Shown here: piece by piece, positions 9,852 to 19,571 of the stretch
Numbering within the stretch: position 1 is the stretch's first letter
Layout: each line of letters begins with the position of its first letter
Assembly: GCA_024707405.1 (NCBI GenBank)
Contig: JANPZU010000003.1
Location: 124,001 to 188,000, forward strand
Length of the DNA: 64,000 nucleotides
Reading direction: 5' to 3'
From: Luteimonas sp.
Lineage (GTDB): Bacteria; Pseudomonadota; Gammaproteobacteria; Xanthomonadales; Xanthomonadaceae
Program-made: the position numbers and the translations under genes
The notes under the pieces: generated by a model
The model's input: only the letters and a program-made list of their open reading frames with translations
Told to the model about the DNA's origin: nothing
Databases searched by the model: none

Positions 9852-9893
9852 TTGCGCCCCTGAGCGTGGCCGCAAGCCTGCCTCGGGGATCCC

Positions 9894-9987
9894 GGAGAGG
9901 TGTCCGAGTGGTTGAAGGAGCACGCCTGGAAAGTGTGTAAGCGTCTAAACCGCGCTTCGGGGGTTCGAATCCCCCCTCTCTCCGCCA
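9894..9987 (+). tRNA. tRNA-Ser(GGA)
   Basis: The sequence folds as a class II tRNA with a long variable arm. The acceptor GGAGAGG pairs with TCTCTCC, followed by discriminator G and an encoded CCA (9985-9987). The anticodon loop CTGGAAA gives anticodon GGA, which reads UCC/UCU serine codons. The T arm is GGGGGTTCGAATCCCCC. Confidence 0.97.
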
Positions 9988-10029: not shown

Positions 10030-10137
10030 GGTGGCCCCGTCGGCCCCTCGCGACGCTAGATCGAAAATCCCGCCAGGGCCGGAAGGCAGCAACGGTATCG
10101 GTCGATGCGGGTGCCGAGGTCAGCCGGCGGGGCCATC
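10030..10137 (+). ncRNA. ffs: 4.5S signal recognition particle RNA
   Basis: This is the bacterial small SRP RNA, which binds Ffh and targets membrane proteins for co-translational insertion. The near-invariant apical region GGGCCGGAAGGCAGCAACGG is at 10076-10095, with the GGAA tetraloop. The ends pair as TGGCCCCG (near 10032) with CGGGGCCA (near 10128). The gene lies about 45 bases after tRNA-Ser(GGA) and may share its promoter. End points are set by the outermost pairing and may be off by a few bases. Confidence 0.93.
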
Positions 10138-16176: not shown

Positions 16177-16267
16177 GGGGAGGTGGCAGAGTGGTTGAAT
16201 GTACCTGACTCGAAATCAGGCATACGTTAATAGCGTATCGGGGGTTCGAATCCCCCCCTCCCCGCCA
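16177..16267 (+). tRNA. tRNA-Ser(CGA)
   Basis: A class II tRNA with acceptor GGGGAGG pairing with CCTCCCC, discriminator G and encoded CCA at 16265-16267. The anticodon arm CTGACTCGAAATCAG gives anticodon CGA, reading UCG. The variable arm TACGTTAATAGCGTA and T arm GGGGGTTCGAATCCCCC are intact. Confidence 0.97.
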
Positions 16268-16690: not shown

Positions 16691-16756
16691 TCTGAGCCGC
16701 GCCCCGGCCTGGCCGGATGTAGCGGCACGCACTCATAACCCATCGAGGTGATGTCG

Positions 16757-17602
16757 ATGTCGCCACACCGCTTCGCCAATCGCCCCTTCGTCCGTTGGCT
16801 GGTCGCACTGTCGTTGATCGCACCGGCCATGGTTCACGCCGACGATACGTTGCCCCCCAGCGATCGCTTCCATGTCGCCGCCGGTCATTTCAGGTCGGAT
16901 CACAACCTGCGATTGCGCTGGGATTCGTCCGCCGGCACGTATGGCACCGAGATCGATTTCCAGCGCGACCTGGGTTTCGATCGCAAGCAGGACACGTTGC
17001 CGTGGAACGTGCATTTCGCCGTCGGGGACGAGCGACAGCACAAGTTCGAGGCCCATGGCTACGGCTACAGCGACCGCAGCCGCTTCGTCATCCAGCGGGC
17101 ACTGGCCATCGGCGACAACGTCTACCCCATCGATGCCGAGGCGTCGTCGCGCTTCGACCTGCGCACCGGCAGCCTGTCCTACACCTGGTTCTTCCAGCGC
17201 GACGACCGGCAAGCCACGGGCATCGGCATCGGAGCACTGCATTACCGGTTGGACATCGGCATCGATGCGCTCGTCCGTGGCAGCGAAGGCGATATCCGGC
17301 TCGCCAACACGCATGCCGGCGAGAAGTGGGCGCCCATGCTGCGGGCCGAATACGTGCGTGTCCTGTCGCCCCAGTGGAGATGGAAGACGGCGGCGGCCTA
17401 CATCAGGAAACCCAACGGCGACACGACCGGCGACATCATCGATGCCTCGGTCGAGCTCGAATGGCTTCCCTTGCGCAATGCCGGGCTCGCCTTGCGCTAC
17501 AGCTACAACCGCCTGGACTTCGACCTGGATCGCTCCACCTTCGTTGGCCGCGTGCGGATGCGCCAGGACGGCCCGCAATTGCTTGGCATCATCCGGTACT
17601 GA
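16757..17602 (+). CDS. Outer-membrane beta-barrel protein, uncharacterised
   Basis: A 281-residue protein with a signal peptide (about residues 1-26, ending VHA) and alternating amphipathic strands throughout, e.g. RFHVAAGHFRSDHNLRLRW, FEAHGYGYSDRSRFVI and NAGLALRYSYNRLDFDL, ending GIIRY with an aromatic last residue as in outer-membrane barrels. No family name is certain. I chose ATG 16757, 6 bases after GAGGTG; a GTG at 16748 and ATG at 16751 are in frame but overlap that ribosome site. It ends 10 bases from asnB, in convergent orientation. Confidence 0.68.
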   Translation: MSPHRFANRPFVRWLVALSLIAPAMVHADDTLPPSDRFHVAAGHFRSDHNLRLRWDSSAGTYGTEIDFQRDLGFDRKQDTLPWNVHFAVGDERQHKFEAHGYGYSDRSRFVIQRALAIGDNVYPIDAEASSRFDLRTGSLSYTWFFQRDDRQATGIGIGALHYRLDIGIDALVRGSEGDIRLANTHAGEKWAPMLRAEYVRVLSPQWRWKTAAAYIRKPNGDTTGDIIDASVELEWLPLRNAGLALRYSYNRLDFDLDRSTFVGRVRMRQDGPQLLGIIRY

Positions 17603-17612
17603 TCGCCCGCAA

Positions 17613-19325
17613 TCACGCCGCCGCGTTGTGCACGCCCGCGACGGCACGGCCGGAAGGATCCGCCGCCGCGGCGAAGCTGGCATCCCACGCAATCGCCGCG
17701 GGTGACGAACAGGCGATCGACTTGCCGCCCGGCACCGTCTCGGCGCAGGCCTGTCCCGGATACAACTGCTCGAACAGCGTGCGGTAGAAGTACGCCTCCT
17801 TGGTCTGCGGCGGGTTGACCGGGAATCGCTTGTCGGCGGCAGCCAGTTCGCGGTCGCTGACCTGCGCTTCGGCATGCGCCTTGAGTCCGTCGATCCAGCC
17901 ATAGCCGACGCCATCGCTGAATTGCTCCTTCTGCCGCCACAGGATGGATTCGGGCAGGTAACCGTCGAAGGCATCGCGCAGCACGCCCTTTTCCATGCGC
18001 TGTGCATCGGTGCGCGACCTGTCGACCATCTTGTGCGCGGCGTCCATTTTCATCGCCACGTCGAGGAATTCGACGTCCAGGAAGGGCACGCGCGGCTCGA
18101 CGCCCCAGGCCATCATCGACTTGTTCGCGCGCAGGCAATCGTAGTTGTGCAAGGCATCGAGCTTGCGCACCAGTTCCTCGTGGAACTCCCCCGCGTTCGG
18201 CGCCTTGTGGAAGTACAGGTAGCCGCCGAAGATCTCGTCGCTGCCCTCGCCCGACAGCACCATCTTCACGCCCATCGCCTTGATGCGCCGGGCCAGCAGG
18301 TACATCGGCGTGGACGCACGGATGGTGGTGACGTCGTAGGTCTCGACATGGCGGATCACTTCGGGGATCGCATCCAGGCCTTCCTGGAACGTGTAGGTGA
18401 AACCGTGGTGCACGGTACCCAGCGCCTTCGCCGCCACCTCGGCTGCGGCCAGGTCGGGCGAGCCTTCAAGACCAATGGCGAACGAATGCAGCCGCGGCCA
18501 CCAGGCTTCGGTCGTGTCGTTGTCCTCGATGCGGTGGCGTGCGTAACGCGCGGCGACTGCAGCCACCAGCGAGGAATCCAGCCCACCCGACAGCAGCACA
18601 CCATAAGGCACGTCGGTCATCAATTGCCGGTGCACGGCGCGCTCGAAGGCCTCGCGCAATTCGTCCTTCGGCACCTGCACGCCCTCGACGGCAGCGTAGT
18701 CGCGCCATGCCTTGTCGTAGTACTTCCGCAGGGCGGGCCCAGGCCCGCCATTCGCGACATCCATCGAAAACTCGTAGTAATGCCCCGGCGGGAACTGCGC
18801 CACGTCCGCACAGATCGGCGCCAGCGCCTTCATTTCCGAGGCCACGCACAGCCGGCCTTCGCGGTCATGCCCCCAGTACAGCGGGCAGACGCCGATGGGA
18901 TCGCGGGCGATGAGTGCGCGGCCCTTCGCCTTGTCCCACAACGCGAACGCGAAGATGCCATTGAGGGCGTTGAGGAACGAGGCCGGATCGTCCTCTCGGT
19001 ACAACGCGTTGATGACTTCACAGTCGGAACCGGTCTGGAAGGCGTAGTCCTGCGCCAGTTCCGCCTTGAGTTCGCGATGGTTGTAGATCTCGCCATTCAC
19101 CGCCAGCGCGAGTTTGCCGTCTGCAGACCGTAGCGGCTGCGAGCCGCCTGCCGGATCGACGATCGCCAGTCGCTCGTGGACGAGGATGGCGCCATCGTCG
19201 TGATACACGCCGCTCCAGTCCGGGCCACGATGGCGCTGCTTCTGCGACAGTTCCAGCGACTGGCGCCGCAATGACGGGATGTCGTCGCCGGGCTGCAGCC
19301 CGAAGATGCCGAAGATCGAACACAT
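17613..19325 (-). CDS. asnB: Asparagine synthase B (glutamine-hydrolysing)
   Basis: A 570-residue enzyme making asparagine from aspartate, ATP and glutamine. The start MCSIFGIFG leaves Cys2 as the nucleophile of the class II glutaminase domain after Met removal (residues 2 to ~190; RGPDWSG and NGEIYNH seen). The synthetase domain has the PP-loop VLLSGGLDSS and SGEGSDEIFGGY. Length is like the E. coli AsnB. AAGGAG precedes the ATG by about 11 bases. Upstream are an Asn-rich leader ORF and terminator, so expression is likely attenuated by asparaginyl-tRNA charging. Confidence 0.96.
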   Translation of the reverse strand: MCSIFGIFGLQPGDDIPSLRRQSLELSQKQRHRGPDWSGVYHDDGAILVHERLAIVDPAGGSQPLRSADGKLALAVNGEIYNHRELKAELAQDYAFQTGSDCEVINALYREDDPASFLNALNGIFAFALWDKAKGRALIARDPIGVCPLYWGHDREGRLCVASEMKALAPICADVAQFPPGHYYEFSMDVANGGPGPALRKYYDKAWRDYAAVEGVQVPKDELREAFERAVHRQLMTDVPYGVLLSGGLDSSLVAAVAARYARHRIEDNDTTEAWWPRLHSFAIGLEGSPDLAAAEVAAKALGTVHHGFTYTFQEGLDAIPEVIRHVETYDVTTIRASTPMYLLARRIKAMGVKMVLSGEGSDEIFGGYLYFHKAPNAGEFHEELVRKLDALHNYDCLRANKSMMAWGVEPRVPFLDVEFLDVAMKMDAAHKMVDRSRTDAQRMEKGVLRDAFDGYLPESILWRQKEQFSDGVGYGWIDGLKAHAEAQVSDRELAAADKRFPVNPPQTKEAYFYRTLFEQLYPGQACAETVPGGKSIACSSPAAIAWDASFAAAADPSGRAVAGVHNAAA

Positions 19326-19374
19326 GCTGGAAACGCTCCTTCGAATGGAATCGGATGGCCACCCGCCCATGCAC

Positions 19375-19401
19375 AAAAAAACCCGCATCTCTCGATGCGG
19401 G
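19375..19401 (-). terminator. Attenuator terminator of asnB
   Basis: Read on the minus strand, CCCGCATC (19401-19394), loop GAGA and GATGCGGG (19389-19382) form a perfect 8-bp stem, followed by seven U residues (19381-19375). It sits 50 bases before asnB and after the leader ORF. Its 5' arm overlaps AGCCCGC (19403-19397), which can instead pair with GCGGGCT in the end of the leader ORF (19452-19446), giving a competing antiterminator. Confidence 0.85.
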
Positions 19402-19431
19402 CTCCTGTCGTGCCGGGCGTGTCTCTGGGAT

Positions 19432-19527
19432 CTACGCCTGGCTGCAGCCCGCTTCGCGCGCACGGTTATTCGCCGCATTGGAATTGCGGTTGCGAATGTC
19501 CGCGTTGCGGAGGGACTGCATTGCCAT
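19432..19527 (-). CDS. asnB leader peptide, asparagine-rich
   Basis: A 31-codon ORF from ATG 19527 to TAG, encoding a peptide with six asparagines: N8, N13, N15, N17, N20 and N21, five of them in nine residues. It lies just upstream of the asnB terminator. The RNA can form 1:2 pairing, GCAGTCC (19519-19513) with GGGCTGC (19450-19444), or 2:3 pairing, GCGGGCT with AGCCCGC. Ribosome stalling at the Asn codons would cover strand 1 and favour 2:3, so that asnB is read. The role is inferred from this architecture; it is too short for most gene finders. Confidence 0.75.
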   Translation of the reverse strand: MAMQSLRNADIRNRNSNAANNRAREAGCSQA

Positions 19528-19533
19528 GTCGCG

Positions 19534-19571
19534 AACGTAACCGCCCCTGCCGCCGCTTGCAACAGTTGCAA
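19534..19571 (-). promoter_or_regulatory. Candidate asnB leader promoter and overlapping palindrome
   Basis: On the minus strand TTGCAA (19562-19557) and TACGTT (19539-19534) are 17 bases apart. Only six bases separate the -10 from the leader ATG, so a transcript from here would be nearly leaderless. The -35 lies in a perfect palindrome, TTGCAACAGTTGCAA (19557-19571), a possible operator shared with the divergent ubiB-like gene. Both hexamers match consensus only partly. Confidence 0.4.

Follow-up and report, generated by a model that had tools for sequence, protein, structure and literature searches.

Background

Ribosome-mediated attenuators are known in proteobacteria for the trp, his, thr, ilv, leu and phe operons. 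A protector pairing between strands 1 and 2 of the leader RNA (1:2) is typical of the trp and his attenuators, and is not treated here as strictly defining. In Firmicutes, asn genes are under T-box control, in which uncharged tRNA-Asn raises transcription by antitermination. In the arrest peptides TnaC and SpeFL, a ligand is sensed in the exit tunnel of the ribosome.

The mechanism of ribosome-mediated attenuation and several of the operons named above are covered in sections of PMC1183508, which include a model in which synonymous codon choice and synchronised starts of the race between ribosome and polymerase govern sensitivity. For S. meliloti trpL, passages of PMC7298713 describe an attenuated RNA whose 5' end is the ATG of its leader, a leaderless small ORF.

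A leader-peptide attenuator of asn genes or asnB could not be recognised in searches of the open PMC set on attenuation, asnB, Xanthomonas start sites and leaderless mRNA (the surveys Vitreschak 2004 and Lopatovskaya 2010 lie outside this scope). The original prediction made from this DNA likewise named no such case for an asparagine synthase. The text of PMC2965389 does not contain 'asparagin', and that of PMC4833913 contains neither 'asparagin' nor 'asnB'.

Leader, terminator and asnB in the window

The window is the whole stretch of Luteimonas sp. DNA that was analysed (64,000 nucleotides). On its minus strand asnB is preceded by a short Asn-rich ORF and a terminator, with the following features:

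17613..19325, minus: asnB, asparagine synthase B, 570 aa (NF006949, 858 bits, cut-off 499; PF00733, PF13537)
19336..19340, minus: asnB Shine-Dalgarno (SD) sequence AGGAG
19401-19375, minus: terminator, CCCGCATC-GAGA-GATGCGGG-T7, with a 4-base loop
19375..19381, minus: U7 tract of the intrinsic terminator, overlapping the outer strand-4 pairs
19377..19389, minus: strand 4, the terminator 3' arm; 13 pairs including an A-U/G-U extension into the U run, with an 8-bp G+C-rich core
19394..19406, minus: strand 3, common to the antiterminator (2:3) and the terminator (3:4)
19432..19527, minus: leader peptide ORF, ATG at 19527, TAG at 19434-19432; 31 codons, 6 Asn; conserved in relatives
19446..19452, minus: strand 2 (GCGGGCT), 5' arm of the antiterminator, within the leader ORF; its codons are frozen at synonymous sites in relatives
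19465..19491, minus: Asn control codons 13-21 (N R N S N A A N N)
19513..19519, minus: strand 1 of the original prediction, GCAGTCC; can pair with strand 2 here, not conserved

The leader ORF (MAMQSLRNADIRNRNSNAANNRAREAGCSQA) has Asn at residues 8, 13, 15, 17, 20 and 21, and re-reading of 19527-19432 on the minus strand gives exactly the 31 codons with six Asn, five of them within nine residues, that had been described. The terminator had been placed 30 bases beyond the ORF and about 50 bases before asnB, with a U7 tract; this is borne out, the 5' arm beginning 30 nt past the leader stop and the T7 run ending 49 nt before the asnB ATG (19325). Strands 1 (GCAGTCC, 19519-19513), 2 (GCGGGCTGC, 19452-19444) and 3 (AGCCCGC, 19403-19397) likewise lie exactly where they had been laid out.

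The leader of the window folds at -79.1 kcal/mol, against -53.8 kcal/mol in shuffles (z -6.4; 0/200 shuffles as stable), and its minimum-energy fold with strand 4 present consists of 1:2 plus 3:4. A generic scan for terminators and promoters, in which 0.3 and 0.2 sites would be expected by chance, lists neither the leader terminator nor a promoter. At the gathering score, no Rfam family is found in the leader, and the T-box covariance model has no match there at the gathering score or at E ≤ 1. Two Rfam models that overlap the hairpin weakly, isrK (RF01394, 19.6 bits) and Leu_leader (RF00512, 16.7 bits), were rejected as far below the gathering score of 50; compared with Leu_leader, the asnB leader has no run of Leu codons.

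Because the ABC1/UbiB-like kinase gene upstream (start at about 19642) is divergent and the ORF beyond asnB (16748-17602, plus strand, without a family match) points toward asnB, the leader and asnB appear to form a unit of their own. Elsewhere the window also holds two tRNA-Ser genes (GGA, CGA) and a small SRP RNA, at 9893-9983, 10037-10133 and 16177-16267.

Distribution among asnB loci

The loci of the order were drawn from a scan of named genomes (best 80 of 465 relatives), from the window's order as a whole, in which asnB was matched in 254 of 299 genomes and 80 upstream stretches were taken from the matches listed, and from a further sample of 21 more distant members. The asnB start was located by script in 205 loci, and a leader was called where an Asn-rich ORF is followed by a hairpin after its stop. 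The original prediction had proposed a conserved Asn-rich ORF upstream of asnB in relatives as one check on itself. Such an ORF with its hairpin is present in 177 of the 205 loci (156 distinct leaders), with the Asn codons conserved. By sample, it is found in 79/80 loci of the named scan, in all 30 best matches of the order (some of them the same species as named-scan loci), in 67/80 fetched stretches and in 1/15 distant loci; in six more distant loci with atypical asnB starts, a dense Asn ORF was not found.

The sole miss of the named scan, L063, has just 6 nt of upstream sequence. Eleven of the 13 misses among the fetched stretches come from a different family (f9) within the order; the other two are L159 and L160. 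The latter were rejected as loci without a leader when more upstream sequence showed a displaced leader of the same kind further upstream (39 codons, e.g. ending CHSNFNRNLNPRPPQAGD). At L159/L255 and L160/L256 (genus g15), several hundred bases are inserted between the attenuator and asnB, and the control of asnB in this genus may be altered by the insertion.

With L159 and L160 counted in, the leader is present in all 17 fetched loci of family f1, as it is in 49/49 fetched f12 loci whose AsnB is at least 75% identical and in 3/3 f2 loci. It is missing from four f12 genomes (L195, L197, L198 and L201) with a more divergent AsnB (66-68%). The leader therefore travels with the orthologue, and the four genomes suggest gene displacement. 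In family f7, L205 has a short Asn-rich leader of its own (MFAIYNTINTTNNRLLRSAGSF) with a terminator, and the other f7 loci examined have none; isolated retention, transfer and convergence are alternative explanations.

The hairpins have 9-15 bp and begin 19-36 nt (median 26) past the leader stop, with a standard deviation of 4.1 nt in the end spacing, and in five leaders no stretch of 12 residues has more than three Asn. An initial terminator filter, in which a long T run was required, missed 25 loci, of which 23 have hairpins with interrupted T runs; therefore, a looser hairpin search was adopted. At L200 and L208, inspection of the loci missed by that filter found ORFs unrelated to the leader.

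The leader rule is satisfied by 1/306 block-shuffled upstream sequences and 2/204 opposite strands. Under a stricter rule (at least 4 Asn in 12 residues, a stem of at least 9, 15-40 nt past the stop), the counts are 172/205 for the loci of the order, 0/306 for shuffled sequences and 0/204 for opposite strands. When the leader rule was applied outside the order, to 22 fetched loci out of 46 matched gammaproteobacterial asnB loci, the leader was absent in 21 of the 22. The remaining one, L239, passes formally, with an ORF of 4 Asn in 12 residues and then a hairpin. Because the same frame lies upstream of asnB in L240, L243, L244, L247 and L251, this match probably represents the end of an upstream gene, followed by that gene's terminator.

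Terminator and antiterminator pairing

The pairings were assessed in an alignment of 71 rows taken from the 177 loci, consisting of 70 sequences at less than 82% identity over the last 75 bases of the ORF, and the window. In 3:4, 93.2% of the cells are paired and both sides have changed in 7 of 12 pairs; the covariation is 0.390, compared with 0.204 in shuffles (0/500), where, because the sequences are related, this and the following shuffle counts should not be read as probabilities. Two of the five measures for 3:4 do not set it apart from shuffled alignments (number of pairs with two-sided changes, 69/500; pair types, 106/500).

In 2:3, 78.9% of the cells are paired, a figure in which five Luteimonas-type rows that look one column off at strand 2 were kept and count against the pairing. 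Both sides have changed in 5 of 9 pairs (2/500 shuffles) and the covariation is 0.169, compared with 0.094 in shuffles (0/500); the count of pair types is not separated from shuffles (253/500). When the register is slid, pairing drops to 29-46%. Column 140, in strand 3, covaries both with column 164 of strand 4 (71/71 paired) and with column 90 of strand 2 (54/71), as a shared arm should. The search for compensatory changes in relatives, also put forward with the original prediction, thus finds covariation in both 3:4 and 2:3.

Duplexes between strands 2 and 3 were compared in 134 loci, with duplicates, one odd spacing and loci lacking a strict T run left out. Cognate duplexes average -25.0 kcal/mol, compared with -20.6 kcal/mol for those swapped between species; the cognate duplex is better than the mean of the swapped ones in 117/134 loci and better than shuffles at 5% in 88/134. 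The energies range from -37.7 to -5.8; the weakest belong to loci that have an Asn codon beyond strand 2 or in which a different hairpin had been picked. Against dinucleotide shuffles, 2:3 has a mean z of -2.4, with p ≤ 0.05 in 41/69.

These pairings bear on a very improbable alternative, namely that a constitutive partial terminator follows the gene of a small protein, with read-through into asnB unregulated and either the short peptide or the released RNA acting in trans. Products of this kind are shown to be capable of trans action by rnTrpL and peTrpL of S. meliloti, in the passages of PMC7298713 devoted to them; this alternative, however, leaves unexplained why Asn codons stand before an Asn synthetase gene, why the 2:3 pairing is conserved and why the distance from stop to hairpin is constrained.

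Strand 2 lies within the leader ORF, and its synonymous sites are frozen. The second Arg, the Val and the Cys are encoded by CGG, GTC and TGC in 33/33 RPMRVCD leaders, and strand 2 of the LGRVGV leaders has AGG in 9/9, while asnB itself favours CGC and GTG. This freezing points to selection on the strand-2 codons as RNA, with the caveat that the species are related. It also bears on the reading of the leader as an arrest peptide, whose nascent chain would sense a ligand in the exit tunnel with the Asn residues as part of the arrest motif. In favour of an arrest peptide, the C-terminal segment NNRARPMRVCD is nearly invariant within subgroups. In other clades, however, the segment is swapped for the unrelated RWRARA, GWAGV, LGRVGV or PRAGD while Asn richness and pairing stay, and the positions of Asn differ between clades. 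Since the constancy of the segment reaches synonymous sites, it reflects strand 2, and an arrest peptide is very improbable.

Translational control, in which stalling on the leader would free the ribosome-binding site of asnB, is likewise very improbable, for although leader and asnB lie in line on one strand and asnB has an SD, the hairpin runs into T-rich sequence, with 4 or more T in 6, in 173/177 loci, and strands 3 and 4 exclude the SD, because the U run in the window ends 34 nt before it and the leader T runs in the listed loci begin at least 28 nt before the asnB start.

Ribosome states and strand 1

The attenuation reading was modelled on 71 representatives, on the assumption that the ribosome covers about 10 nt past its A-site codon. 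For a ribosome that has reached the stop codon, 3:4 is predicted to form in 71/71. With strand 4 not yet made, 2:3 is predicted to form in 61/71 when the ribosome is at the last Asn codon and in 70/71 when it is at the first control Asn; for a ribosome on the final Asn codon, the model gives no 2:3 of at least 5 pairs in 10/71. Under the assumed footprint, the 5' arm of this exclusive antiterminator would thus be covered at the stop but free at the control codons. At equilibrium with strand 4 present, 3:4 is predicted to win over 2:3 in 69/71 even when the ribosome is stalled; therefore, antitermination would have to be kinetic, with the switch acting during transcription.

The 1:2 pairing is better than shuffles in only 9 of the 69 representatives scored (two of the 71 zones were too short), and in 5/69 when the stretch ahead of the Asn codons is scored by itself. 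In the untranslated leader without strand 4, strand 2 pairs upstream in 24/61 and stays with strand 3 in 36/61, the window being among the 36. Moreover, a ribosome that stalls at codons 13-21 would not cover strand 1 (codons 3-5). As a general element strand 1 is ruled out, since 1:2 is not conserved among the representatives; a protector pairing in the untranslated leader is possible in the window and not conserved, and this feature of the classical attenuators is lacking. The competition had been said to be exactly that of the his and trp attenuators. This holds for 2:3 against 3:4, which covary in relatives, and fails for strand 1 and 1:2, where 9/69 beat shuffles.

Predicted promoter and start of the leader transcript

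Two predicted promoter boxes precede the leader:

19557..19562, minus: TTGCAA, predicted -35 box for the leader; score 13, 17-nt spacer
19534..19539, minus: -10 box TACGTT (predicted); ends 6 nt before the leader ATG

The promoter call rests on conservation, because the generic scan found no promoter here. A promoter score of at least 11 is obtained in 153 of the 156 distinct leaders, compared with 12/730 random positions and 48/780 shuffled upstream sequences; where several in-frame ATG exist, the one with the best promoter score was picked, which favours the real set over the controls. The distance from the -10 box to the ATG is 6 or 7 nt in 146/156 leaders, and the base at -1 is C in 95%. 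An SD-like 4-mer stands before the leader ATG in 11/156, compared with 151/156 before the asnB ATG. Since the -10 box ends 6 nt before the ATG, the transcript is predicted to begin at or beside the AUG, and the leader is probably translated as a leaderless mRNA.

Asn codons of the leaders

Asn makes up 21.0% of the last 32 codons of the 156 leaders, compared with 1.9% in asnB (90 genes). In the window, the leader Asn codons span 19465-19506, and at codons 15, 20 and 21 the first two bases are kept in at least 90% of the 71 aligned sequences and the third is not. The share of AAU among Asn codons is 484/1026 (47%) in leaders and 125/949 (13%) in asnB, and the fraction is above that of asnB in 85/90 leader/asnB comparisons, while the third-position G+C of all other codons is about equal (87.5% in leaders, 85.9% in asnB). 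The preference for AAU may reflect either slower reading or an unpaired control region. By analogy with the trans action of rnTrpL and peTrpL in S. meliloti, a lineage-wide design may be imagined, with the Asn attenuator as its founding case, in which leaderless mRNA synchronises the starts of transcription and translation, AAU tunes the response, and the terminated leader RNA and the peptide also act in trans on other nitrogen genes; such a design is unlikely.

Supply of Asn-tRNA

Among 54 sampled genomes of the order, 52 have an AsnRS that scores above the cut-off. The exceptions, G079 (f9) and G092 (f7), are both without the leader, and GatB was also not found in them; they possibly reflect assembly gaps or another route to Asn-tRNA. 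The amidotransferase route is rejected for the 54 sampled genomes, with gatB in 0/54, while the same model matches 12/14 control genomes. In the window's own genome, where the assembly is 93% complete and the absences of asnA and gatB are limited accordingly, asnA was not found; there is one full AsnB, and PF00733 matches weakly at two other places (34 and 23 bits). A rough tRNA-Asn pattern matches this 93% complete genome only at places that do not fit an Asn anticodon loop. With AsnRS present and gatB not found, free Asn from AsnB should therefore feed the tRNA that is read in the leader.

Proposed mechanism

Ribosome-mediated transcription attenuation of asnB, with asparaginyl-tRNA as the signal, is given a probability of about 0.9. 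The original prediction that asnB is attenuated by stalling at Asn codons finds support in the conserved Asn codons and in the covariation of 3:4 and 2:3. To these features, observed in the sequences themselves, are added the spacing, the promoter-like boxes, and the presence of AsnRS with GatB not found. Translation of the leader, stalling, termination and induction would then proceed as follows.

Judging from the promoter geometry, RNA polymerase would start at or beside the leader AUG, and a ribosome would load on the leaderless 5' end. When Asn-tRNA is plentiful, the Asn codons would be read fast and the ribosome would reach the stop, where it would cover strand 2, so that 3:4 pairs and transcription ends before asnB. 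When Asn-tRNA is scarce, the ribosome would wait on the Asn codons and leave strand 2 free to capture strand 3 while strand 4 has yet to be transcribed, and the polymerase would read into asnB. The product of AsnB would replenish the Asn-tRNA signal and close the loop, since AsnRS charges tRNA-Asn and the sampled genomes gave no sign of an amidotransferase route. By this mechanism, asnB would very probably be switched on only when asparagine is short.

If this is true, leader-peptide attenuation extends to asparagine as well, and control of asnB is predicted across the relatives of Xanthomonas. The 156 distinct natural variants would be material on whether leaderless starts sharpen the race between ribosome and polymerase, and on whether AAU over AAC tunes sensitivity.

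Comparison with known systems

T-box control of asn genes shares the signal, uncharged tRNA-Asn, with the proposed system but differs in that the tRNA binds the RNA directly and there is no leader peptide. S. meliloti trpL (rnTrpL/peTrpL) has an RNA beginning at the leader ATG; such a start is predicted here from the promoter geometry and from the lack of an SD in most of the 156 leaders. In contrast, that system concerns tryptophan in an alphaproteobacterium, and trans roles of its peptide and RNA are reported in passages of PMC7298713.

As far as can be judged from features testable in sequence, the locus fits the attenuator class, except that 1:2 is not conserved. As in the trp, his, thr, ilv, leu and phe attenuators, a leader ORF with cognate codons and a terminator stand before a biosynthetic gene, with a competing antiterminator. 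Unlike those attenuators, it involves asparagine and asnB, apparently controls a single gene, has no conserved 1:2 pairing, and has a probable leaderless start.
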